Shown here one piece after another: positions 8,077 to 22,556 of a DNA stretch of 51,339 bases. How positions within the stretch are numbered: the stretch's first letter is position 1; each line of letters opens with the position of its first letter. The notes beneath the pieces are model-generated. The model searched no databases. It was not told the DNA's origin and saw only the letters and a program-made list of their open reading frames with translations. Position numbers and translations under genes: made by a program. This DNA comes from Alphaproteobacteria bacterium (lineage in GTDB: Bacteria; Pseudomonadota; Alphaproteobacteria; Rhizobiales; JAKIUO01): assembly GCA_024279115.1 (NCBI GenBank), contig JAJRRW010000141.1, forward strand, positions 1 to 51,339, read 5' to 3'.

Positions 8077-8784
8077 GTGGGAGATTTTACACAAGCATTT
8101 CAGATAGCCTTCGACTTGCTCTGGTCAATGGACAAGGAGCTGTATTCGATTGTCTATCTCTCCTTGAAGGTTTCCATCAGCGCCGTTCTTATCTCTTGTG
8201 CCCTTGGTTTTGTGATTGGTGCGGCGCTGACCGTTTTTCGGTTTCCGGGACGACGGGCGTTGCTCATTTTATTCAATGCCTTGATGGGATTGCCGCCGGT
8301 TGTGGTTGGCTTGATGGTCTATATGGTTCTGTCGCGCTCGGGCCCGCTTGGCGTGCTTGGTTTGCTGTATACGCCAACGGCGATGATTATTGCTCAAACG
8401 GTGTTGATTACCCCCTTGGTCGCGGCCCTTTCGGCGCAGGTATTGCAAGAATTGCATCAAGAATATGACGAGTTTTTCCGGTCGCTACAGCTTTCTGCGC
8501 GCGACAAACTGTTTACTCTTTTGTGGGAGGGGCGTTTTGGCTTGGTGACGGTGGGGCTGGCGGGATTTGGTCGCGCCATATCAGAAGTGGGGGCCGTTAT
8601 GATTGTGGGCGGCAATATCAATCATCTGACCCGCATCATGACCACCGCGATTGCGCTTGAGACCTCCAAAGGCACGCTGGCGCTGGCATTGGCGCTGGGC
8701 ATAATCCTGATCGTTATATCCTTGCTGGTTAATACCTCCGTTGCGCTGGTGCGCTCCAAAGCCAAAGAAGTGATCTATGCTTGA
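8077..8784 (+). CDS. tupB: Tungstate ABC transporter permease (TupB-like)
   Basis: Integral membrane permease with EFFRSLQLSARDKLFTLLWEGRFGLVTVGLAGFGRAISEVGAVMIVGGNI; followed by ATPase and TupA-type binding protein; GTG start. Confidence 0.88.
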   Translation: MGDFTQAFQIAFDLLWSMDKELYSIVYLSLKVSISAVLISCALGFVIGAALTVFRFPGRRALLILFNALMGLPPVVVGLMVYMVLSRSGPLGVLGLLYTPTAMIIAQTVLITPLVAALSAQVLQELHQEYDEFFRSLQLSARDKLFTLLWEGRFGLVTVGLAGFGRAISEVGAVMIVGGNINHLTRIMTTAIALETSKGTLALALALGIILIVISLLVNTSVALVRSKAKEVIYA

Positions 8785-9558
8785 GCAACCAAACAGAGCG
8801 CCAAAAAGTGCCGCAAAACGCCGATGCAAGCCCATGCATTTTGAAAATGTGGTGCTAAAAATCAACGGCATTGAGCTTATTCAGCACATTAATTGCACCT
8901 TGCAGGCAACTGGAAAGACCATTGTGCTAGGCCCAAATGGTGCTGGCAAAAGTCTGTTTTTGCGCTTGATGAGCGGGCTGATGGAACCAACCAGCGGCTC
9001 GATCACCGGCGGGCTTGAGGAGCAGGGCAGCTTAGCGCATCTGGATCAGCTGTCAGGGACGCCGTGCATGTCTTTGGTCTTTCAAAACCCGGTGATGTTG
9101 CGACGTACGGCGTTTGAAAATATCGCTTTCGTCTTGCGCCATCACCGCGTCGCCAGGCATGAAATTGCCGCCAAAGTCGATGCTGCGCTGGCGATTGCCA
9201 GGCTTCAGACAAGGGGGCAGGTTCCCGCGCGGCGCCTGTCTGGAGGAGAGCAGCAGCGTCTGGCACTGGCGCGCACCCTGATTGTCAATCCCCACGCCTT
9301 GCTCTTGGATGAGCCAACGGCAAGCCTTGACCCCTTGTCCACCTCCATCGTCGAAGATATGATCGAGCAGGCAGATCAAATGGGTACGAAAATAGTACTT
9401 GTGACCCATGATATTAAGCAGGCCAAGCGCATGGCGGATGATATTTTGTTCATCCATCTGGGCGAAGTGCTGGCCCACAAATCAAAACGGGCCTTTTCAA
9501 AGACCCGGGAAGCAAGCAGGCGCAGGCCTATCTCGATGGCCGCGTACCAGAGGAATAA
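8777..9558 (+). CDS. tupC: Tungstate ABC transporter ATP-binding protein (TupC-like); apparent 1-nt frameshift near the 3' end
   Basis: Walker A GPNGAGKSLF, LSGGEQQRLALART, Walker B LLLDEPTASLD. As read, the ORF ends at 9613 with an atypical tail; adding one A at 9484-9487 gives ...TGLFKDPGSKQAQAYLDGRVPEE* ending at 9558. Confidence 0.85.
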
Positions 9559-9584
9559 AGTGTTGACAAAAGGAGCCTTAAAAA

Positions 9585-9884
9585 TTGGACAAGCAAACTC
9601 AAACAGAAATTGAAGCCGCCGCCTTTCGGGGACTGGTAGAGCATTTGCGCAAGCGCACCGATGTGCAAAATATTGACCTGATGATCCTGGCGGGGTTCTG
9701 CCGGAACTGCCTTGCCAAATGGGTCAAGAAGGGAGCCGCCGAGAACGGGCTTGAAATGGACTACGACCAGGCGCGCCAATTCGTCTATGGTATGCCCTAT
9801 GAGGACTATAAGCATAAATATCAAAAGGATGCGACGCCAGAACAACGAGCAGCCTATGAAAAAGCCGATAAGGCGGTCATTTAG
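9585..9884 (+). CDS. DUF1244 family protein
   Basis: MILAGFCRNCLAKWVKKGAAENGLEMDYDQARQFVYGMPYEDYKHKYQ; TTG start with aaaggag upstream. Confidence 0.85.
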   Translation: MDKQTQTEIEAAAFRGLVEHLRKRTDVQNIDLMILAGFCRNCLAKWVKKGAAENGLEMDYDQARQFVYGMPYEDYKHKYQKDATPEQRAAYEKADKAVI

Positions 9885-9903
9885 GAAAATTGGAAATACC
9901 AAA

Positions 9904-10743
9904 ATGAAGAGAAGAATGTTCGGCTTTGTGAGTGTCTTTGTGGGAGCTTGCCTGTCAGTGTTGCCCATTGCGCAGGCAACGGACGATCAATCTATAATCG
10001 TGCAATCCACAACCTCGACGCAAAATTCGGGTTTGTTTGATGTCATTTTGCCTTTGTTTAAAAAACACTCGGGGATCACCGTGCATGTGGTGGCGGTTGG
10101 CACCGGGCAGGCTCTCAAAAACGGCCGCAATGGCGATGGAGATGTGCTGCTGGTGCATGCCAAGTCCGCCGAGCAGACCTTCGTCAAAGAGGGCTATGGC
10201 GTCAAGCGCTTCGATGTCATGTATAATGATTTTGTGATCGTTGGCCCGCGCCAGGACCCCGCCGGGCTGGCGCGAGAACAAGACATTGTCAAAGCTTTGC
10301 GAAAAATCGCTTCGACCAAAGCGGCCTTTGCTTCTCGAGGTGATGATAGCGGCACCAATACAAAAGAGCTGCAACTTTGGAAACTGGCCGGTATTGATGT
10401 CAGTAAAAGCAGTGGCAGCTGGTATCGCGAAACCGGTTCTGGCATGGGGGCGACGCTCAATCTGGCCGCTGGCATGAACGCCTATACGCTTAGCGATCGC
10501 GCCACATGGATTGCCTTTGAAAACAAGGGGACCCTTGAAATCTTGAGCGAGGGCGATAAGCGATTGTTCAACCAGTATGGCGTGATGCTGATCAATCCAA
10601 AAAGACACAAGCATGTGAAACAGGCACAAGGGCAGGCCTTTATTGGCTGGTTGACCGGGCCACGGGGGCAGGCGGCGATTGCCTCTTATAAACGAAAGGG
10701 CAAGCAACTGTTCTTTCCAAATGCGGCAACCATGACCCATTAG
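9904..10743 (+). CDS. tupA: Tungstate ABC transporter substrate-binding protein (TupA-like)
   Basis: Signal peptide then IIVQSTTSTQNSGLFDVILPLFKKHSGITVHVVAVGTGQALKNGRNGDGDVLLVHAK; TTSTxxSGL is a TupA-type oxyanion-binding motif. Confidence 0.9.
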   Translation: MKRRMFGFVSVFVGACLSVLPIAQATDDQSIIVQSTTSTQNSGLFDVILPLFKKHSGITVHVVAVGTGQALKNGRNGDGDVLLVHAKSAEQTFVKEGYGVKRFDVMYNDFVIVGPRQDPAGLAREQDIVKALRKIASTKAAFASRGDDSGTNTKELQLWKLAGIDVSKSSGSWYRETGSGMGATLNLAAGMNAYTLSDRATWIAFENKGTLEILSEGDKRLFNQYGVMLINPKRHKHVKQAQGQAFIGWLTGPRGQAAIASYKRKGKQLFFPNAATMTH

Positions 10744-10807: not shown

Positions 10808-12078
10808 ATGAACAACAAAAACCTCAATGATTGCTTTGCCCATGATGGCGCCATGCTCACCCATGAGCAGGCCTTGGAAAAACTGACCACGGGGCTGTCG
10901 CCAATTGAGGAGACGCGCTCCATGGCCCTTGACGATGCGATGGGATTGGTGCTGGCGCAGCCAGTTGTTGCGCCAAGGAATATCCCCGCCCATACCAATA
11001 GCGCCGTGGATGGCTATGGCTTTTCGTTTGCCGATTATGATCCAAAAGCCGGGTCACAGTTTGCGGTCACCGGCACGATGGCGGCTGGGGCTCCGCTTGA
11101 GGGGGAGGTTGTATCCAATAGCGCTATTCGCATTTTCACGGGGGCAGCCATGCCGCAGGGGTTGGAGAGCGTTGTCATGCAAGAAGATGTGGCGCTTTTG
11201 TCCAGCGCCCACGGGGAGCAGGTTAAGATACCAGCGGGCCTGAAGTGCGGGGCCAATGTTCGTCTGGCAGGTGAGGATGTGCGAGCAGGGGCAACCGTGC
11301 TGACTGCCAACAGGCGCTTGTCTCCTCAAGATCTGGCCGCCATTGCCTCAACCGGGGCCAGCAAAATTGCCTGTTATCGCCCGCTCAAGGTCGCCATCTT
11401 TTCAACCGGTGATGAGGTCATTCGCCCCGGCGCGCCCTTCGAGCATGGCAAAGTCTATGACAGCAATGCCGCCATGCTGCGCGGCCTGATCTGTAAAATG
11501 GGGGCCTCGTGCGACGATCTTGGCGTGCTGCCCGACGACGAAAAACTCATCGAAGAGGCCCTGGCGGGCGCCGCGCAAAGCCATGACATCTTGTTGACGT
11601 CGGGGGGCGTCAGCGTTGGCGAACTGGATTTCGTGCTCAAGGCTCTGCACAAGCTTGGCTCTGTGCATCTTTGGAAAATTGCCATCAAGCCGGGCCGCCC
11701 CATGAGCTTTGGTCAGATCGGTAATTGTTTGATGCTGGGTTTGCCCGGCAATCCCGTTGCCGCGTTTTTGTGTTTTTTACTCTATGCGCAACCGGTGCTG
11801 AGCGTGCTGTCTGGACAACAATGGCAATCGCCAACGCGCTACAAGGTTCGGGCCGGATTTTCCATGCGCAAAAAACCGGGGCGCAGAGAGTTTTTGCGCG
11901 GCGTATTGGATCACGGCGATGACGGCATGTTGCAGGTCAAAAATATGCCCGCGATGGTTCGGGGCTAATCTCCTCCTTGACGCAAGCCGATGGCTTTATC
12001 GAGCTGGCTGAACAGGTCGTTGAGGTAAAATCAGGTGAGTTGGTTGACTTTATTCCCTTTGGCAGTTTTGGTCTTTGA
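10808..12078 (+). CDS. moeA: Molybdopterin molybdenumtransferase MoeA, copy 1; apparent frameshift near 11939-11943
   Basis: VDGYGFSFADYD, FTGAAMPQG, IFSTGDEV, TSGGVSVGE, GLPGNPVAAF. As read the ORF stops at 11968; adding one A to the AAAAA run gives ...VKKYARDGSGLISSLTQADGFIELAEQVVEVKSGELVDFIPFGSFGL*, a normal MoeA C-terminus. Confidence 0.88.
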
Positions 12079-12109
12079 TGTGACACAAAAAGAGAGCGGA
12101 CAAAAAAAC

Positions 12110-13327
12110 ATGCAGCATAAGCTTACCCCTCTTGAGGAGGTGCTTGAACTTCTTGAGCAAAGTGCCCAGCCACTCGTTGAGCGTGAAATGGTCTCTCTGG
12201 GGGAGGCCGATGGCCGCGTGCTTGCGCAAGATCTCGTTTCGCCGTTCGATGTCCCAGCTTTTGACAATAGCCGCATGGATGGCTATGCGGTACGCGCCGA
12301 TGATTGTCACTCTGCCTTGCCGATTTCACAGATCATTGCTGCTGGCAGTGAGGCCGCGCCGCTGGCAAAAGGTACGGCGGCTCGTATTTTTACCGGCGCG
12401 ATTTTGCCCCGGGGTGCCGATAGTGTGGTGATGCAGGAAAACACCCAATCAGATGGTAAAACCGTCAGCTTCACGCAGCCCGTTGAGCCTCATCAATTTA
12501 TTGGACGGCGCGGCGAAGACATCAGGCAGGGGCAGGTGGTGCTGAAGGCAGGACACCGATTGCTGCCGCAAGATGTGGGCTTGGCGGCCTCGATGGGGGC
12601 TGGTGCATTATCGGTTATCAGGCGACCGCGTGTGGCCATTTTTTCAACAGGCGATGAGTTGAAAGAACCTGGCGAACCGCTTTTAAGTGGACAGATTTAT
12701 AATTCCAATCGCTATCAGCTGGGAGCGCTGATTAAGCGGTCTGGAGGCGAATTGATGGATTTTGGCATTGTGGCGGATGATCTGGAACAAACGCAGGCAA
12801 AACTGCTGGAGGCTGCGCAAAGCGCCGATATGGTGCTGACCAGCGGCGGGGTCTCGGTTGGCGAGAAAGATTATTTGCGCGAAGCCCTCGACAAGGTTGG
12901 CGAACTCAATCTGTGGCGCATCAATATCAAACCCGGCAAGCCTGTGGTTTTTGGTCATCTAAACACCAGCAGCGCAAAACAGACCCCCTATATGGGACTT
13001 CCCGGCAATCCGGTTTCGGTGTTTGTGACCTATTTGATGCTGGCACAACCTTTTTTGCTGAAATTGGCCGGGGCCAAGGTCACGCAGATGCAAGATATTA
13101 CGGTTGTCGCCGGGTTTGATCAGCCCCGCGCCCAGTCGCGGCGGCAATTTTTGCGCTGTCGTGTGGAGGTGCAAGACGGGCAAATGACAGCCATCCCCTA
13201 TGATAATCAATCCTCCGCCGTTTTAACTTCTGTGAGCCAGTCAAACGGGCTTGCAGTTGTCGAGGAAGACAGCACGGTCAAGAAGGGCGATTTACTGCCC
13301 TTTTATCCCTATGAGGGATTGCTTTAA
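12110..13327 (+). CDS. moeA: Molybdopterin molybdenumtransferase MoeA, copy 2
   Basis: FDNSRMDGYAVRADD, FTGAILPRGADSVVMQE, IFSTGDEL, TSGGVSVGEKDY, GLPGNPVSVFVTY. Confidence 0.92.
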   Translation: MQHKLTPLEEVLELLEQSAQPLVEREMVSLGEADGRVLAQDLVSPFDVPAFDNSRMDGYAVRADDCHSALPISQIIAAGSEAAPLAKGTAARIFTGAILPRGADSVVMQENTQSDGKTVSFTQPVEPHQFIGRRGEDIRQGQVVLKAGHRLLPQDVGLAASMGAGALSVIRRPRVAIFSTGDELKEPGEPLLSGQIYNSNRYQLGALIKRSGGELMDFGIVADDLEQTQAKLLEAAQSADMVLTSGGVSVGEKDYLREALDKVGELNLWRINIKPGKPVVFGHLNTSSAKQTPYMGLPGNPVSVFVTYLMLAQPFLLKLAGAKVTQMQDITVVAGFDQPRAQSRRQFLRCRVEVQDGQMTAIPYDNQSSAVLTSVSQSNGLAVVEEDSTVKKGDLLPFYPYEGLL

Positions 13328-13335
13328 GATCGCTT

Positions 13336-13629
13336 TTAGCCGCCGCCTCGATGAAAGGCGCGCTCAAAGCTTTGCATGAAACCTTGGCGTTGTTGCTCGC
13401 TCGCATCACCAAACTCAATGGTCACATGCCATCGTTCGAGTTTGAGGGTCGGGCCAAGGGCGAGGGCGGGCAGGGGATCCAGGGTCAGGCTGACCTGCGT
13501 ATCGCCGCAAATCGCTCGGATATGATTGCCATCAATGGTCGAACTCATGTCCCGCAAGGCGGTTTTTAAATTGCGAAAAAATTCGGCGCGGGTGGTGGTC
13601 ATGTCCAGGTGTATTTTGGCGGCTGTCAT
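13336..13629 (-). CDS. Uncharacterised 97-aa protein ending in Arg-Gly-Gly-Gly, antisense within the moeA-aor locus
   Basis: ORF ...WHVTIEFGDASEQQRQGFMQSFERAFHRGGG*; 6-nt gap to the upstream MoaD-like gene on the same strand. Confidence 0.6.
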   Translation of the reverse strand: MTAAKIHLDMTTTRAEFFRNLKTALRDMSSTIDGNHIRAICGDTQVSLTLDPLPALALGPTLKLERWHVTIEFGDASEQQRQGFMQSFERAFHRGGG

Positions 13630-13635
13630 GGCCCC

Positions 13636-13890
13636 CTATCCCCCGGCGATCGGGGGCCACACGGCCAGGGTATCCCCTTTGGCAAGGGACTGACTGTCGC
13701 GTTGTTCGGGGTGAATGAACAGACCGTTGACCAGGACCAGATGACAATGTTCCAACGGCACACGCAACTCCCTCAAGACCGAATTGACGGTGGCGTCCAT
13801 GGGGCAATCATACGGAGCTGCTCCCTTGACACCTGGCTGCGGCATGAATTCGGTAAGATGGGCAAATAATTTGACCTTGATTTGATGCAT
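13636..13890 (-). CDS. MoaD/ThiS-like ubiquitin-fold sulfur-carrier protein
   Basis: IKVKLFAHLTEFMP...LVLVNGLFIHPEQRDSQSLAKGDTLAVWPPIAGG* with the typical C-terminal GG. Confidence 0.82.
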   Translation of the reverse strand: MHQIKVKLFAHLTEFMPQPGVKGAAPYDCPMDATVNSVLRELRVPLEHCHLVLVNGLFIHPEQRDSQSLAKGDTLAVWPPIAGG

Positions 13891-13989: not shown

Positions 13990-14064
13990 AGCGATGAATT
14001 ACCTGCAACAATTACTTTTCTATGCTTGAAATATCTTGTAGGCTTCGTTCAGTCTCTTCATATA

Positions 14065-14577
14065 ATGAATGTCAGCAGATGGCTTGAGAGGAAGAAGCAA
14101 TTGCAAAAATCACTCCACATTAGCGCCGATGACTGCACCGGGTGCTATCAATGCGTCCTAGCCTGTTCCGATGCCCACGGTCACGATTTCAATCCAGTGA
14201 AATCTGTCATCCAGGTCTTCAGGTTTGAAGATGAGGGCCGTGATGTCCCTTATACCTGCACGCAATGCGATGAAGCCTGGTGTCAAAAATCCTGCCCCAC
14301 CGACGCCATTTCTGTCGATGCCAACGGAGCAAAAGTGGTTTCAGAGGCGTTATGTGTGGGCTGCAAAGTTTGCACCATTGCCTGCCCGTTTGGCACGATC
14401 AACTATAATGCTGACAGCGGTAAAGTCATCAAATGTGATCTGTGCGGCGGAGATCCTGCCTGCGTGAAGGCCTGTCCCACCAGCGCCATAACATTTGTCC
14501 ACTCCGACACGGCACAATTTAACAAGATGCGCGACTGGGCCGGAAAAACGGATGCTGGTTCGCAGCAGTCAACATAA
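14065..14577 (+). CDS. Four-cluster ferredoxin, AorA-like electron-transfer subunit
   Basis: CTGCYQCVLAC, CTQCDEAWCQKSCP, CVGCKVCTIACP, CDLCGGDPACVKACP; immediately upstream of the AOR gene. Start could also be TTG 14101. Confidence 0.87.
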   Translation: MNVSRWLERKKQLQKSLHISADDCTGCYQCVLACSDAHGHDFNPVKSVIQVFRFEDEGRDVPYTCTQCDEAWCQKSCPTDAISVDANGAKVVSEALCVGCKVCTIACPFGTINYNADSGKVIKCDLCGGDPACVKACPTSAITFVHSDTAQFNKMRDWAGKTDAGSQQST

Positions 14578-14595: not shown

Positions 14596-16443
14596 ATGGC
14601 TTGGACAGGAAAAATCCTCAGGGTCGATCTGACCGCTGGTACCTGCACACTGGAACCGTTGAATATGCAATGGGCGGGAGATTATCTCGGACAGCGTGGC
14701 TTGGCGACCAAATATCTGATGAGCGAAATCGACCCCAAGGTAGATCCGCTCTCTCCCGACAATAAAATGATCATGGCAACGGGGCCTTTGACGGGCACCA
14801 GCGCGTCCACCGGCGGTCGCTATTCAGTCATTACCAAGGGCGAGCTCACCGGGGCCATTGCCTGCTCGAACTCGGGTGGATTTTTCGGCAATGAAATGAA
14901 AAATGCCGGTTGGGACATGATTATCTTTGAGGGCAAGTCCGATAAGCTGGTCTATTTGCTGATCGAGAATGACCAGGCCACTTTGATGGATGCTGCCGAG
15001 TATAAAGGAGCTTCTTGCTGGGATACCGAAGAGGGTATCAAGTCCAAACATGGCGACCAGTTCATTCGCGTTGCCTCTATTGGCGGTGCCGGTGAAAATG
15101 GCGTCAAATATGCCTGTATCATCAATGATATGGACCGCGCTGCCGGGCGTTCTGGCGTTGGCACGGTGATGGGGTCGAAAAACCTCAAGGCTGTGGCGAT
15201 AAGAGGAACTCTTGGGGTCAAGGTCAAGGATCGCGAAAAATTTGCTGTCGCGGTTGCCGCTGGTAAAAAAGTACTGGCCGACAATCCGGTGACGGGTCAG
15301 GGGCTGCCAACTTATGGCACGCAGGTGCTGATGAATGTCATCAACGAATCAGGAGCTCTGCCGACCCGAAATCACAAGGATATTCAGTTCGAAGATGCCC
15401 ATGATATATCTGGCGAAGCCATGCACGAACCGCGCAAGTCTGACGGCAAACCAAATCTTGTCAGCAACGCAGCTTGTTTCGCGTGTACCATTGCCTGCCA
15501 ACGGGTCTCGACCATTGATCGCACCCATTATACCGTGAAAGACCGCCCCGAATATCATAAAGCCTCGGGCGGCCTTGAATATGAAGCCGCCTGGTCGCTT
15601 GGAGCCGCGTGCGGCGTCAATGATCTGGATGCCTTGACCTTTGCCAATTTTCTTTGCAACGAGCATGGCATTGATCCCATTACCTTTGGCGCCACATTGG
15701 CGGCTGCCATGGAACTCTATGAAATGGGGGTCATCAATGACGAAACCACAGGCGGGGTGAAGCTGACCTTTGGCAGCGCCGAGGCGTTGACGACCTTGGT
15801 GGAGCAGACTTGCAAAAGTGAAGGTTTTGGCGTCGAGCTTGGTCTTGGGTCAAAACGCCTGTGCGAAAAATATGGCAAACCCGAGCTGTCCATGGGCGTC
15901 AAGGGGCAGGAATTCCCCGCCTATGACGGACGTGGTATTCAGGGCATCGGTCTGGCTTATGCAACCTCCAATCGCGGTGCCTGCCATTTGCGCGGATATA
16001 CCATCGCTTCGGAAATTTTGGGTATTCCGGTGAAAACTGACCCGTTGGAAACAGAGGGCAAGGCGGGATTGGTGAAGGCGTTTCAAGATGCCACGGCCGC
16101 GTTTGATTCGGCAGGTATCTGTATTTTCTCGTCCTTTGCCTGGACGCTTGATGATGTGGCCCCGCAAATTGATGCGGCCTGTGAAGGGGATTGGTCTGCG
16201 GATCGGTTGCTGGAGCTGGGGGAGCGTATCTGGAATATGGAACGCCAGTTCAATCTGCAGGCCGGGTTTACCGGTGCCGATGATACTTTGCCGGCCCGCC
16301 TGTTGAAGGATGCCGCAACAACCGGCCCTGCCAAAGGCAAGGTTTCGGGCCTTGAAACCATGTTGCCAGAATATTATGAGCTGCGCGGCTGGTCACAAGA
16401 CGGGGTGCCAACGGCAGAAACGCTTAGCCGCTTTGGCCTGTAG
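14596..16443 (+). CDS. Tungsten-containing aldehyde ferredoxin oxidoreductase (AOR family; AorB-like)
   Basis: WTGKILRVDLTAGTCTLEPL, GPLTGTSASTGGRYSVITKG, GIGLAYATSNRGACHLRGYTIASEILGIP; cluster motif CFACTIAC. Confidence 0.95.
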   Translation: MAWTGKILRVDLTAGTCTLEPLNMQWAGDYLGQRGLATKYLMSEIDPKVDPLSPDNKMIMATGPLTGTSASTGGRYSVITKGELTGAIACSNSGGFFGNEMKNAGWDMIIFEGKSDKLVYLLIENDQATLMDAAEYKGASCWDTEEGIKSKHGDQFIRVASIGGAGENGVKYACIINDMDRAAGRSGVGTVMGSKNLKAVAIRGTLGVKVKDREKFAVAVAAGKKVLADNPVTGQGLPTYGTQVLMNVINESGALPTRNHKDIQFEDAHDISGEAMHEPRKSDGKPNLVSNAACFACTIACQRVSTIDRTHYTVKDRPEYHKASGGLEYEAAWSLGAACGVNDLDALTFANFLCNEHGIDPITFGATLAAAMELYEMGVINDETTGGVKLTFGSAEALTTLVEQTCKSEGFGVELGLGSKRLCEKYGKPELSMGVKGQEFPAYDGRGIQGIGLAYATSNRGACHLRGYTIASEILGIPVKTDPLETEGKAGLVKAFQDATAAFDSAGICIFSSFAWTLDDVAPQIDAACEGDWSADRLLELGERIWNMERQFNLQAGFTGADDTLPARLLKDAATTGPAKGKVSGLETMLPEYYELRGWSQDGVPTAETLSRFGL

Positions 16444-16487: not shown

Positions 16488-17735
16488 ATGAAACAGGCAG
16501 ATTATGTCATCATTGGCGCTGGTCCGGCAGCGGTCGCCGCTGCCGAGACCTTGCGCAGCACGGATAAGAGCGGCTCGATCGCCATTATTTCTCGCGAGAA
16601 TATCTCGCCTTATTCGCGTATGGCGTTGCCCTATTTTCTCACTGGTCAAATCTCGCAAAAAGGCACCTATTTGCGAAAATCCAGCGATCATTACAAACAG
16701 CGAGATATCACGCTCTATCACGCCACGGTCACCAGTATCGATCCGCAAAACAAGCACCTTGAGCTGGCAAGTGGTGGCCGTATTACCTATGGCAAACTGT
16801 TGATTGCGACCGGCGCATCTCCGGTAAAACCGCCATTGCCCGGACTGGACCTGCCTGGTGTCCACAATTGCTGGACGCTTGATGACGCCAAGGCGATGGC
16901 TCAGCGGGCGGGCCCGGGAGCCAATATCGTGTTGATGGGGGCAGGGTTCATCGGCTGTATCATTCTGGAGGCCTTGATGTCGCGCGGCGCCACTCTCACA
17001 GTTGTTGAGGCCGGAAACCGTATGGTGCCTCGCATGATGAATGATGTAGCGGGCAATATGCTGAAAAGCTGGTGCGAACAAAAAGGCATGACCATTTTGA
17101 CCTCAACACGTGTGGTCAGTGTCGCGCAGGCCAAGGGCAAGCTTGAAGTGACGCTCGATAATGGCGCGAGCGATCTGGTTGATCTTGTGGTGGTGGCAAC
17201 TGGCGTTGCCGCTAGTGTGGATTTTGCCTGCGGCACAGATATGGAGATCGAAGACGGCATCAAGATTGATGAGCACATGCAGACAAGTATCAACGATATA
17301 TACGCGGCGGGAGATTGCGCGCAGGGTCGTGATTTTTCAACCGGCTTTTGGTCGGTGCATGCCATCCAGCCGACCGCCACCGAACATGGTCACATCGCCG
17401 CTCTCAATATGGCGGGGCAAGAGGCCGCATACAAAGGCAGCCTCAATATGAATGTGCTGGATACGGCGGGCCTGATCTCTTCATCCTTTGGCCAATGGCA
17501 AGGGGTCGAGGGGGGGCAAAGCGCCCAAAACCTTGATGCGGAGCGCTATCGCTATACGCATTTGTCCTTTGAGGGGGATCGGCTGATCGGTGCCCTGACC
17601 ATCGGCCAGACTGACAATATCGGCATCTTGCGTGGTCTCATCCAGTCCCGCACCAAGCTGGGTGTCTGGAAGGACCGCTTGCTGAAAAACCCCAACCGCA
17701 TCGCCCAAAGCTATATCGCCAGCACTTTGATGTAA
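16488..17735 (+). CDS. FAD-dependent NAD(P)H oxidoreductase, AorC-like subunit
   Basis: YVIIGAGPAAVAAAETLR (FAD Rossmann), LLIATGASPVKP, NIVLMGAGFIGCIILEAL (NAD Rossmann), IYAAGDCAQ; directly follows AOR. Confidence 0.88.
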   Translation: MKQADYVIIGAGPAAVAAAETLRSTDKSGSIAIISRENISPYSRMALPYFLTGQISQKGTYLRKSSDHYKQRDITLYHATVTSIDPQNKHLELASGGRITYGKLLIATGASPVKPPLPGLDLPGVHNCWTLDDAKAMAQRAGPGANIVLMGAGFIGCIILEALMSRGATLTVVEAGNRMVPRMMNDVAGNMLKSWCEQKGMTILTSTRVVSVAQAKGKLEVTLDNGASDLVDLVVVATGVAASVDFACGTDMEIEDGIKIDEHMQTSINDIYAAGDCAQGRDFSTGFWSVHAIQPTATEHGHIAALNMAGQEAAYKGSLNMNVLDTAGLISSSFGQWQGVEGGQSAQNLDAERYRYTHLSFEGDRLIGALTIGQTDNIGILRGLIQSRTKLGVWKDRLLKNPNRIAQSYIASTLM

Positions 17736-18321: not shown

Positions 18322-20568
18322 TTGCACATCTTTTGTAGAGCAGCTGTCGCACTGGTTCTCAGTGTCAGTCCGGTTTTGTCCGGCGGTGGTGATCTGGCCA
18401 AATATCTGGCGAAAGTGCCCGCCTCTGAATTTTTCCCCAAAGCCGATGGATATGGCAAGGTCATGGCGGACAAGCCGGTTGTCCTGGTAAGCAAAAATAG
18501 CAAAACCATCGGTTACGTGTTTCTCAATACTGATTTTTCGGGATCAATCGGCTATTCGGGAAAACCGATTAAAATTTTAATCGGACTTGATATTCACGGG
18601 CGCATAGCTGGCGCAAAGCTGGTCAAACATACAGAGCCCATTGTGCTTGCCGGTATACCCGAAAAGAAAATAACAAATTTTATAGAAGCCTATAAGACGC
18701 TTGATACCGCCAAGATTGCCAGCGCCAGTTCTACTGATAATGCGCCACCTGCCGATATCGTGTCTGGTGCGACCGTCACGGTTTTGGTGATTGACGATTC
18801 TATCCGCCGCGCGTCTGTTCGTGTTGCGCGTTTATTGGGCCTTGCTGGGCTTAGTGTCGCTCACAAGAAAACGGCGACCGTCAAAAAGACCGTCAATCGC
18901 GCCATGCACGACATAAAAGACTGGGAGACCATGACGGGAGAGGGGTCTGTACGCCGGTTGAAGCTGTCGGTTGGTGATATCAATGCCGCATTTGCAAAAA
19001 CCGGAAACGCGATAGCGATAGATCGCCCGGAACCTGGCTCACCCGATGAGACCTTTATTGATTTGTATGTTGCCTCGCTTAGTGTGCCAGGGATCGCAAA
19101 GAGCCTCATTGGCGAGGCTGAATATGCGCATTTGCAAAAACGGCTAAAAGCGGGACGCGAGGCCTTTTTGGTGATGGGGAGCGGCCGATACTCGTTTAAA
19201 GGGTCGGGCTATGTGCGCGGCGGTATTTTTGACAGAATCGTGGTGATCCAGGGCGAAGAACCCATGCGTTTTCGCGACAAGGTGCACAAGCGTCTTGGCG
19301 AAGTCGTCGCCGCTGGTGCCCCCGATGTTAAAGAGGTCGGGGTGTTTATGACCCCCAAGGGAGCGAACTTTGACCCGGTTGAAACCTGGCGATTACAATT
19401 GCTTGTGCATCGGGCCATCGGGGCCATCAAAAAGGTTTTTGTCAATTTCAACCTATCCTATCAGTTGCCATCCAAATATGTGAGCGTGGAAAAAATTGCT
19501 CTCTCCAAGGGCCAGAAGGTCGTTGCGAACAAGACCCTCCATGTTGATGATGAAGACGAGGCAGCCAGAAACGCGCTGTGGCAGCGTATCTGGCAGCAAA
19601 AAACGGCAATGATTGTCATCCTTGTCCTGGCGATCAGCGTGTTGACCATCATGTTTTTCTTCCAGAATTTTCTGGTGGTCAATGAACGTTTGACCAACCG
19701 CTTTCGCATCGGCTTTCTTCTTTTTACATTATTTTGGATCGGCTTTTATGCACAGGCACAGCTCTCGGTGGTCAATGTACTGGTATTTGCCAACGCCTTG
19801 CTTGGCGAATTTCGCTGGCAGTTCTTTTTGTTAGAGCCATTGATCTTCATTTGGTGGTGTTCAGTGGCGGCTTCCATCTTGTTCTGGGGGCGGGGCGCCT
19901 TTTGTGGCTGGCTATGCCCGTTTGGGGCACTGCAAGAACTTTTGAACAAAGTCGCAAGGTGGCGGAACGTGCCGCAAATCACGCTGCCCTGGGGGCTGCA
20001 TGAGCGGTTGTGGCCGATCAAATATCTGATCTTCCTGGCGCTGCTTGGCTTGTCTGTCTACTCGCTGTCATTCGCCGAGCAGCTCGCCGAAATCGAGCCG
20101 TTCAAGACCGCCATTGTCCTGCGGTTTGATCGTTCCTGGCCATATATTTTATTTGTCGGCGTCCTGCTGGTTGCGGGTCTGTTTATCGAGCGATTTTATT
20201 GCCGCTATTTGTGTCCGCTTGGGGCGGCGCTGGCTATTCCGGCGCGCATCGCCATGTTTCACTGGCTGAAACGCTATCGTAACTGCGGCGATCCTTGTCA
20301 TCTATGTGCGCAGGACTGCATGGTCCAGGCGATCGATCCGCTGGGCGAAATCAACCCCAATGAATGTCTGCATTGCCTGCATTGCCAGACCATGTATTTC
20401 AACGAAAATGTTTGCCCTGTGGTTATTCAAAAAACCGCCAAGGCTCGCAAGGCCGGGAACGCGTCCAAGGGCAATCTGGATGGTAAAAATACCGCCACAA
20501 TCGACGAAGCAAAAACCCTGCTTCGCAAGCCCCGCCGCCTTGGCCGGGCCCGAACTATAGAAGACTAG
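18322..20568 (+). CDS. nosR: NosR regulatory/electron-transfer protein for N2O reductase (start uncertain)
   Basis: FMN-binding N-terminal region, six-TM region with CGWLCPFGALQELL and CRYLCPLGAALAIPARIAMF, CHLCAQDCMVQAIDPLGEINPNECLHCLHC; upstream of nosZ. ORF start is TTG; ATG 18299 is in another frame. Confidence 0.9.
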   Translation: MHIFCRAAVALVLSVSPVLSGGGDLAKYLAKVPASEFFPKADGYGKVMADKPVVLVSKNSKTIGYVFLNTDFSGSIGYSGKPIKILIGLDIHGRIAGAKLVKHTEPIVLAGIPEKKITNFIEAYKTLDTAKIASASSTDNAPPADIVSGATVTVLVIDDSIRRASVRVARLLGLAGLSVAHKKTATVKKTVNRAMHDIKDWETMTGEGSVRRLKLSVGDINAAFAKTGNAIAIDRPEPGSPDETFIDLYVASLSVPGIAKSLIGEAEYAHLQKRLKAGREAFLVMGSGRYSFKGSGYVRGGIFDRIVVIQGEEPMRFRDKVHKRLGEVVAAGAPDVKEVGVFMTPKGANFDPVETWRLQLLVHRAIGAIKKVFVNFNLSYQLPSKYVSVEKIALSKGQKVVANKTLHVDDEDEAARNALWQRIWQQKTAMIVILVLAISVLTIMFFFQNFLVVNERLTNRFRIGFLLFTLFWIGFYAQAQLSVVNVLVFANALLGEFRWQFFLLEPLIFIWWCSVAASILFWGRGAFCGWLCPFGALQELLNKVARWRNVPQITLPWGLHERLWPIKYLIFLALLGLSVYSLSFAEQLAEIEPFKTAIVLRFDRSWPYILFVGVLLVAGLFIERFYCRYLCPLGAALAIPARIAMFHWLKRYRNCGDPCHLCAQDCMVQAIDPLGEINPNECLHCLHCQTMYFNENVCPVVIQKTAKARKAGNASKGNLDGKNTATIDEAKTLLRKPRRLGRARTIED

Positions 20569-20624
20569 GGAAGTAAGGTCGAAGCCCGCGTTGGAAACAA
20601 TGCCATAATCAAAGGGATCAGAAA

Positions 20625-22556
20625 ATGAGCGACAATAAAAAAACAGATGACGTCAAGAAATTGAACGAAGTCAAAAAAACGGGAGTCTCAAGGCGTTTGT
20701 TACTTGGTGGCTCGGCTGCTGCTGCAGGTGCTGGCGTATTGGCGTTGAAGGCGGGATTGCCTTCAACCCCCGCACATGCGGCCAGCAAGACGGCTGTCGC
20801 TCCTGGTGATCTGGATGAATATTACGGATTCTGGAGCAGCGGACAGGCGGGCGAAGTGCGCATTATGGGCGTCCCCTCAATGCGAGAATTGATGCGTATT
20901 CCCGTGTTCAACAGATGTAGCGCTACCGGCTGGGGGCAGACCAATGAAAGCCTCAAAATTCTGACCGAAAATATGCTGCCGCACGAAAGGCAATATTGGC
21001 AGGACAAGGGCGGTATTCCCTTGAGCGGCGATCTCCATCATCCCCACATGTCGTTTACCAATGGGACCTATGACGGGCGCTATATTTTCGTCAATGACAC
21101 AGCCAATACCAGGGTGGCGCGTATACGTTGTGATATCATGAAGGTCGACAAGATCATATCGATCCCCAATGCTTCTGGCATTCACGGACTTCGACCGCAA
21201 AAATTCCCGCGCACCGGCTATGTTTTTGCCAATGGCGAGCACCGCGGTCCCCTGCCTAACGATGGCACGGTGTTGGATGACCCCAAGAATTATCACGCCG
21301 TTTTCACAGCGATTGACGGGGACACCATGAAGGTGGCCTGGCAGGTGATGGTGGATGGCAATCTGGACAATGTGGATGCTGATTATCAGGGAAAATATGC
21401 CGTCTCTTCTTGTTATAATTCAGAGGAAGGGGTCAATCTTGCAGGCATGACCTCCTCGGAACAAGATTGGGCTGTGGTGTTTGACATTGCTGCGATTGAA
21501 GCTGGCGTAAAGGCAGGTGATTTTAAAACCTATGATGGCGGCGTGCCCGTGCTTGATGGCCGCAAGGGATCAAAATACACGATCTATATCCCGATCTCGA
21601 ACTCACCTCATGGTGTCAACACGGCTCCCGATGGCCATCATATCGTCGTCAATGGCAAATTGTCGCCGACCGTCACTGTGCTTGATGTCCGCCTGTTTGC
21701 TGATGTGTTCTCAGGCAAGCTAAAGCCACGTGGTTGCGTTGTAGCTGAGCCCGAACTGGGTCTTGGGCCTTTGCATACTGCTTTTGACAATAAGGGCAAT
21801 GCTTACACCACCTTGTTCCTTGATAGTCAGGCGTGCAAGTGGAGCATCGAAAAAGCCAAGCAGCAATATGCCGGCAAGAAAGTCGATCCCATATTGCACA
21901 AGATCGATGTGCATTATCAACCAGGGCATAACCATACCTCTATGGGGGAGACCAACAAGGCGGACGGCAAATGGCTGGTGTCACTTAACAAGTTTTCAAA
22001 GGACCGGTATATTAATGTTGGGCCGTTAAAGCCCGAAAATGATCAATTGATCGATATTTCGGGCGATAAAATGAAACTTGTTCATGATGGTCCAACCTTT
22101 GCCGAGCCGCATGATTGCATTATTGTTCATCGCTCGGTGGTCAATCCAAGCCATATTTATGACCGCGCTGACCCGATGTTTGACGACCTCAAAAAAATGG
22201 CCAAGAAGGATGGCATTGGAAATCTGGAGGATGCGGAGCATGTGATCCGCGATGGCAACAAGGTGCGTGTGTACATGCATTCTGTAGCGCCGAATTTTTC
22301 ACTTGAGAAGTTCACCGTAAAGCAGGGCGACGAGGTAACTGTGATCGTCACCAATATTGATGATGTGAGTGATCTGACGCATGGCTTTACGCTCGACAGT
22401 CATGGGATCGCTTTTGAAATCGGGCCACAACAAAGCGCCTCGGCAACCTTCAAGGCGGACATGCCCGGCGTTCATTGGTTCTATTGCCAATGGTTCTGCC
22501 ATGCCCTTCATATGGAGATGCGTGGCCGGATGATCGTCGAACCAAAGGCCACTTAA
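20625..22556 (+). CDS. nosZ: Nitrous-oxide reductase NosZ, Tat-exported (clade I-like)
   Basis: Twin-arginine leader [15 protein letters not shown]; CuA motif [43 protein letters not shown]-like core. Confidence 0.97.

Follow-up and report, generated by a model that had tools for sequence, protein, structure and literature searches.

The window, by which we mean the whole 51,339-nucleotide stretch of DNA analysed here, belongs to an alphaproteobacterial host assembly of 2.83 Mb in 145 contigs and contains a locus for a tungsten aldehyde oxidoreductase (AOR) with the following features.

8077..10743, + strand: tupB-tupC-tupA-like tungstate ABC transporter, with NF041773, NF041774 and NF041772 among its NCBIfam matches
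10808..11968, + strand: moeA-1, matching MoeA_N and MoCF_biosynth
12035..13327, + strand: moeA-2, molybdopterin molybdotransferase, matching MoeA_N, MoCF_biosynth and MoeA_C; tail-to-tail with aorE
13336..13629, - strand: 97-aa ORF, almost certainly aorE, a predicted DUF1952-like stand-alone domain with C-terminal RGGG (ends AFHRGGG)
13636..13890, - strand: aorD, AOR-linked MoaD-like sulfur carrier, 84 aa, ends WPPIAGG
14026..14577 (ORF), + strand: aorA, 4Fe-4S polyferredoxin subunit, matching Fer4 families
14596..16443, + strand: aorB, tungsten aldehyde oxidoreductase catalytic subunit, matching AFOR_N/AFOR_C
16488..17735, + strand: aorC, FAD/NAD(P)H oxidoreductase subunit, matching Pyr_redox_2 (4e-57)

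The aorD-aorE pair lies on the opposite strand between moeA-2 and aorA, with 6 nt between the aorD stop and aorE. The tup-like transporter and the two moeA genes are found upstream, and aorA, aorB and aorC follow on the other strand. The ORF calls agree with an earlier sequence-only reading of this DNA in the coordinates, spacing and termini of the pair. The best PDB match of the aorB product is 8c0z, the AOR of A. aromaticum, with an E-value of 2.7e-300. The start codon of aorA is uncertain, and its coding sequence probably begins near 14101. All three tup NCBIfam matches score under their equivalog cut-offs, and the TupA model is the sole match for its own ORF. A DUF1244 protein (PF06844, 4.6e-35; 9585-9884) overlaps the listed start of the tupA-like ORF, so the true start of tupA is probably further downstream. 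As moeA-1 has no match to MoeA_C (domain IV) and the adjoining moeA-2 has one, each of the two copies near tup and aor could be specific for one metal, or the end of moeA-1 may be truncated or frameshifted. Directly behind aorC are nosR and a TAT-type nosZ (TIGR04244, 1083 bits; 18322-22556), and the AOR locus thus adjoins genes of nitrous-oxide respiration. A search for RNA families in the window found none apart from one tRNA.

The product of aorD was taken as MoaD-like by the sequence-only reading, and the assignment holds, with a PF02597 match of 34.1 bits (4.1e-08) against a cut-off of 22.5 in addition to the C-terminal GG. It scores under the NCBIfam MoaD equivalog cut-off and is therefore a divergent MoaD. 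Separate canonical MoaD-like, ThiS-like and MoaE genes are present elsewhere in the host genome.

No Pfam or NCBIfam model matches the 97-aa protein, as might be expected of a spurious ORF or decaying remnant. Three congeners, however, carry full-length homologues of 54-62% identity, all ending AFHRGGG, and across the four copies dN ranges from 0.08 to 0.41 and dS from 0.46 up to saturation. Nei-Gojobori dN/dS pairs against the window copy were 0.24/1.71, 0.24/1.25 and 0.41/2.95, indicating purifying selection with a dN/dS of ~0.14-0.19. All four copies have an uninterrupted coding frame, and their other frames are mostly broken. The 97-aa ORF is a real gene; a spurious origin is refuted by purifying selection, broad conservation and fixed gene order, and retains practically no probability. 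Purifying selection also gives indirect support for its translation.

Identity and distribution of the AorE family

A single-sequence contig search with the 97-aa protein returned no match. A four-sequence profile reached homologues across the order and class, and a 28-sequence profile reached further Pseudomonadota, one order with many AOR genomes that we name Burkholderiales from its AorB identities to A. aromaticum. In total, profile searches recovered 71 distinct homologous ORFs in Alphaproteobacteria and Burkholderiales, with weak profile matches containing internal stops counted as noise, and yielded no AorE homologue in plasmid collections. An apparent double AorE in one locus (L132) was rejected, as its second match was partial and lay ahead of the true start. 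In one genome (G167), two tandem aorE genes with the ends QRGG and RGGG reside behind moaD (L071 5581-6170), and a third, divergent copy ending RSGGG lies ~14 kb off (L071 19632-19964). Another genome (G457) has a second, solitary aorE-like ORF (L069 7755-8102) with no AOR or MoaD detected nearby.

The usual gene order in Alphaproteobacteria and Burkholderiales is aorA-aorB-aorC-moaD followed by the 97-aa gene family, with a MoaD gene immediately preceding 68 of 83 homologue ORFs on their own strand, a count that includes duplicates from re-fetched loci. Homologues are thus usually, not rarely, found beside AOR and MoaD genes, which bears out the earlier proposal of a dedicated MoaD with an AOR-linked partner. 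A. aromaticum has an operon aorABCDE in which aorD and aorE were named as putative maturation genes in 2019 (PMC6365974), and its AorE is WP_041646407 (PMC9295118). With AorB of A. aromaticum, taken from PDB 8c0z, as the query, relatives with an AorB 83-87% identical to it were found to carry aorABC-moaD and then the 97-aa gene family (L125-L128). Based on this operon position in close relatives of A. aromaticum, the 97-aa gene is almost certainly aorE. The sequence-only reading had offered it as the best candidate for an undescribed AOR maturation factor. A maturation role is indeed the published guess for aorE, and co-expression data back it (PMC9295118), but the gene is not undescribed, having almost certainly been the one named in 2019 (PMC6365974). 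The aorE gene family and its likely role are therefore already in the literature.

Of 199 genomes surveyed in the order, the first profile found aorE in 21, and every one of these also carries an A. aromaticum-class AorB (Fisher p = 5e-24, kinship ignored). Five genomes of the order have an AorB of this class without a first-profile aorE match, and the wider profile found aorE in four of these. In the AorB tree, the loci with AorE group in a single clade, to which A. aromaticum also belongs. A sister AorB class (55-57%) has aorABC and a MoaD ending PLKGG, without AorE. The two kinds of operon can also be told apart by their MoaD, which ends PP[IVL]AGG in 68/68 cases adjoining AorE (re-fetched duplicates counted) and PLKGG in all five operons without AorE. 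Within the clade, no AorE was found near the AORs of G943, G939, G1040, G961 and G013 although the flank was present, and in G013 (a genome 84% complete) it was not found elsewhere in the genome either.

Several loci depart from the usual layout. In six genomes of one family (f33; L072, L074, L075, L076, L077 and L078), aorE lies outside the AOR operon, and all six still carry an A. aromaticum-class AOR elsewhere; in L072 and L075 the gene is near homologues of cysI, cobM (cobalt-precorrin methyltransferase) and leuB and an OmpA-like gene, as assigned by reading. In L088 (4648-7627), a TRAP-type transporter, also assigned by reading, separates aorB from moaD, and no aorC was detected in the locus, an arrangement that suggests a different electron acceptor or a link to substrate uptake. 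An AOR of 50% identity on an Azospirillum plasmid (L120) is accompanied by MoaD, a membrane NuoL/NuoB-like complex and hypA, without aorC and aorE, and is possibly a different AOR-containing energy-converting complex.

C-terminal tail, predicted fold and the Thermus protein 1v8c

Conservation of the terminal glycines, a point raised by the sequence-only reading, was checked across the family, and -GG is the exact C-terminus in 71/71 homologues, with the tails RGGG (61), RAGG (4), KGGG (4), RGG (1) and SGGG (1). Over 31 representative AorE sequences, column identity averages 35%. The tail (R94, G95-G97) aside, the only near-invariant position in these representatives is M10, a Met that precedes the N-terminal helix. 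The same set shows no conservation of a catalytic Cys, His or acidic residue, and AorE is therefore unlikely to be an enzyme.

An AlphaFold2 model of AorE shows the order b-a-b-b-b-b-a, with a pLDDT of 80 from a single sequence and 86 from seven; the terminal GGG is disordered in the model, and the tail follows directly after a helix. The predicted fold is thus b-a-b4-a rather than beta-grasp, and comparison of the AorE and MoaD profiles gave an hhalign probability of 0.3%. Foldseek searches with the model returned KA1 domains, PYL receptors and 1v8c, the top match being the KA1 kinase domain 4yom. Chains A and B of 1v8c were matched with probabilities of 1.00 and 0.99 and TM scores of 0.59 and 0.52, respectively. 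Among the Foldseek matches listed, no beta-grasp protein was recognised except 1v8c, which also holds a DUF1952 domain. We take the KA1 domain, the PYL receptors and the 1v8c domain to share the TBP-like fold class, and DUF1952 (PF09189) to be the C-terminal domain of 1v8c. The glycine tail had been read as the hallmark of a ubiquitin-like protein, an expectation that the predicted fold and the profile comparison do not support; the structural check that had been proposed led instead to the DUF1952-type domain of 1v8c.

Additional support comes from profile searches. One AorE homologue passes the DUF1952 model (8e-05, 22.9 bits against a cut-off of 22) and aligns to 1v8c residues 110-154, this being the only relative to reach the gathering score; the window protein itself has no DUF1952 match. 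With hhalign, AorE matches 1v8c at a probability of 92% with the tail and 69% without it. A PDB profile search with 31 sequences ranked 1v8c first at an E-value of 0.5, which is not significant alone, and the search with 28 sequences did not find it. In the PDB, the 1v8c chain runs from a MoaD domain ending PPVAGG directly into GFERTFG and finishes with SRGGG. As no line is decisive alone, the link is carried by these several lines together with gene order, and on that footing we regard the DUF1952 domain of 1v8c, with strong confidence, as the best-supported known relative of AorE. Since it holds a MoaD and a DUF1952-like domain in one chain with the same tail, 1v8c looks like a fused form of aorD/aorE. 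The Amphi-Trp domain (PF20068) was also considered as the AorE fold and set aside, having one weak member match (E 0.016), and 1v8c emerged instead.

In-frame MoaD-AorE fusions were not found in Proteobacteria, nor was a copy of the Thermus 1v8c C-terminal domain found in plasmid collections. Neither MoaD nor AorE is annotated beside a Thermus plasmid AOR of 30% identity. In the literature searched, no paper on DUF1952 was found and three papers mention aorD/aorE; within that coverage, the AorE fold, the link to DUF1952 and the 1v8c fusion, the invariant tail and the confinement to one AorB clade appear to be new.

Proposed function and comparison with known systems

The making and insertion of tungsten-bis-molybdopterin in AOR-family enzymes are poorly understood, AORs are sought after for reducing acids with H2, and published work treats aorDE as a black box. 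Without aorDE, 4.5 U/mg was reported at 1.06 W per complex; with aorDE added jointly, 16 U/mg at 0.39 W; and with tungstate as well as aorDE, 85 U/mg at 1.52 W (PMC9295118 Table 1). Recalculated from these values, which look like single preparations and give a hint only, the activities are ~4, 41 and 56 U/mg per W, respectively. The higher activity per W with aorDE therefore favours a role in cofactor completion or hand-over, and aorDE jointly may raise cofactor quality rather than cofactor quantity. We infer that AorE, not AorD, is behind the published effect.

In our assessment, AorE probably works in a pair with AorD as a non-enzymatic factor in the maturation of AorB, a W-bis-molybdopterin enzyme. 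The body of AorE would dock on AorD or on an AorB/molybdopterin-synthase complex, and its small-residue tail would enter a narrow active-site channel of the partner, much as the GG tail of MoaD enters MoaE. Tail entry would then complete cofactor synthesis, or the hand-over of sulfur or cofactor, for AOR, and the flexible GGG tail would be the working part of the protein. Within this maturation-factor reading, we favour only tentatively a tail that acts as a non-covalent docking or transfer arm, and find it rather unlikely that the tail is itself activated and thiocarboxylated; roles without tail chemistry account for the rest.

The main rival holds that the terminal glycine makes AorE a second sulfur carrier, adenylated by an E1-like MoeB, thiocarboxylated and working in relay with AorD. 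The -GG terminus in every homologue and the MoaD partner are consistent with this, as is the Thermus fusion, in which the GG of MoaD is internal, leaving SRGGG as the sole free C-terminus of an uncut chain. A general precedent is bacterial cGAS, a non-ubiquitin protein that is activated via its C-terminal tail according to the portion of the source available (PMC10097602). However, AorE is predicted not to be beta-grasp, its tail directly follows a helix, the host genome already has canonical MoaD-like and MoaE genes, and no E1 gene was seen adjoining the aorD-aorE pair, so we consider a second carrier unlikely. Distinctly unlikely, too, is its most specific form, a relay from AorD to an AorE with a DUF1952 body and a thiocarboxylated C-terminal Gly, fused in Thermus so that the AorE domain carries the free tail; if true, bacterial tungsten enzymes would use two carriers in relay, one of them with a non-ubiquitin fold.

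AorE might instead act as a chaperone in the assembly of apo-AorB or the AorAB filament, the GGG serving only as a binding peptide with no sulfur or cofactor chemistry. Its confinement to one AorB clade and its lack of conserved catalytic residues speak for this, as does its absence from the purified A. aromaticum enzyme (PMC6365974), which would be expected of a chaperone. Yet AorE travels with MoaD rather than freely around aorAB, is fused to MoaD in Thermus, and belongs to an aorDE pair that alters activity per tungsten and not only amount (PMC9295118), which leaves this role doubtful. That AorE is a protein modifier, attached through its C-terminal Gly to AorB or some other target, is highly improbable: the terminal -GG and nothing else speaks for it, against a predicted non-ubiquitin fold and neighbourhoods in which, as far as they were read, no E2/E3, JAB protease or conjugation gene was noticed.

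With the preferred maturation-factor reading, tail conservation and fold together yield a specific, testable prediction on the finishing of the tungsten cofactor. AorE gains a predicted fold, a relative with a crystal structure in 1v8c, an invariant tail and a precise phylogenetic scope, and the results point to a possible function for DUF1952, a Pfam domain of unknown function.

In A. aromaticum, AorE likewise stands behind aorABC and a MoaD gene and is tied to the same AOR subfamily. In contrast to that aorABCDE order, the aorD-aorE pair of the window is divergent from aorABC, between moeA-2 and aorA. Both AorD and AorE of A. aromaticum were described in 2019 as resembling MoaD (PMC6365974), whereas the family studied here is not MoaD-like in predicted fold or profile, and the description of AorE is corrected accordingly. 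AOR-linked MoaD genes were proposed to serve tungsten cofactor synthesis by Iyer et al. in 2006, and their MoaD-AOR neighbourhood is the same as that found here; the accessible portion of that paper mentions neither the small gene paired with MoaD nor the C-terminal domain of the Thermus protein (PMC1779556). The sulfur carriers MoaD, ThiS, SAMP and Urm1 share with AorE an exposed C-terminal di- or tri-glycine, but these are beta-grasp proteins, and AorE has another predicted fold without profile similarity to them. A further likeness is to 1v8c, the MoaD related protein of T. thermophilus, which resembles AorE in predicted fold, in a G-x-L-x-[LI]-P core motif and in its SRGGG end, and in which the DUF1952 domain comes right behind a MoaD domain ending PPVAGG, as AorE comes behind AorD; the Thermus protein is one fused chain, whereas the window encodes the two parts as separate genes.
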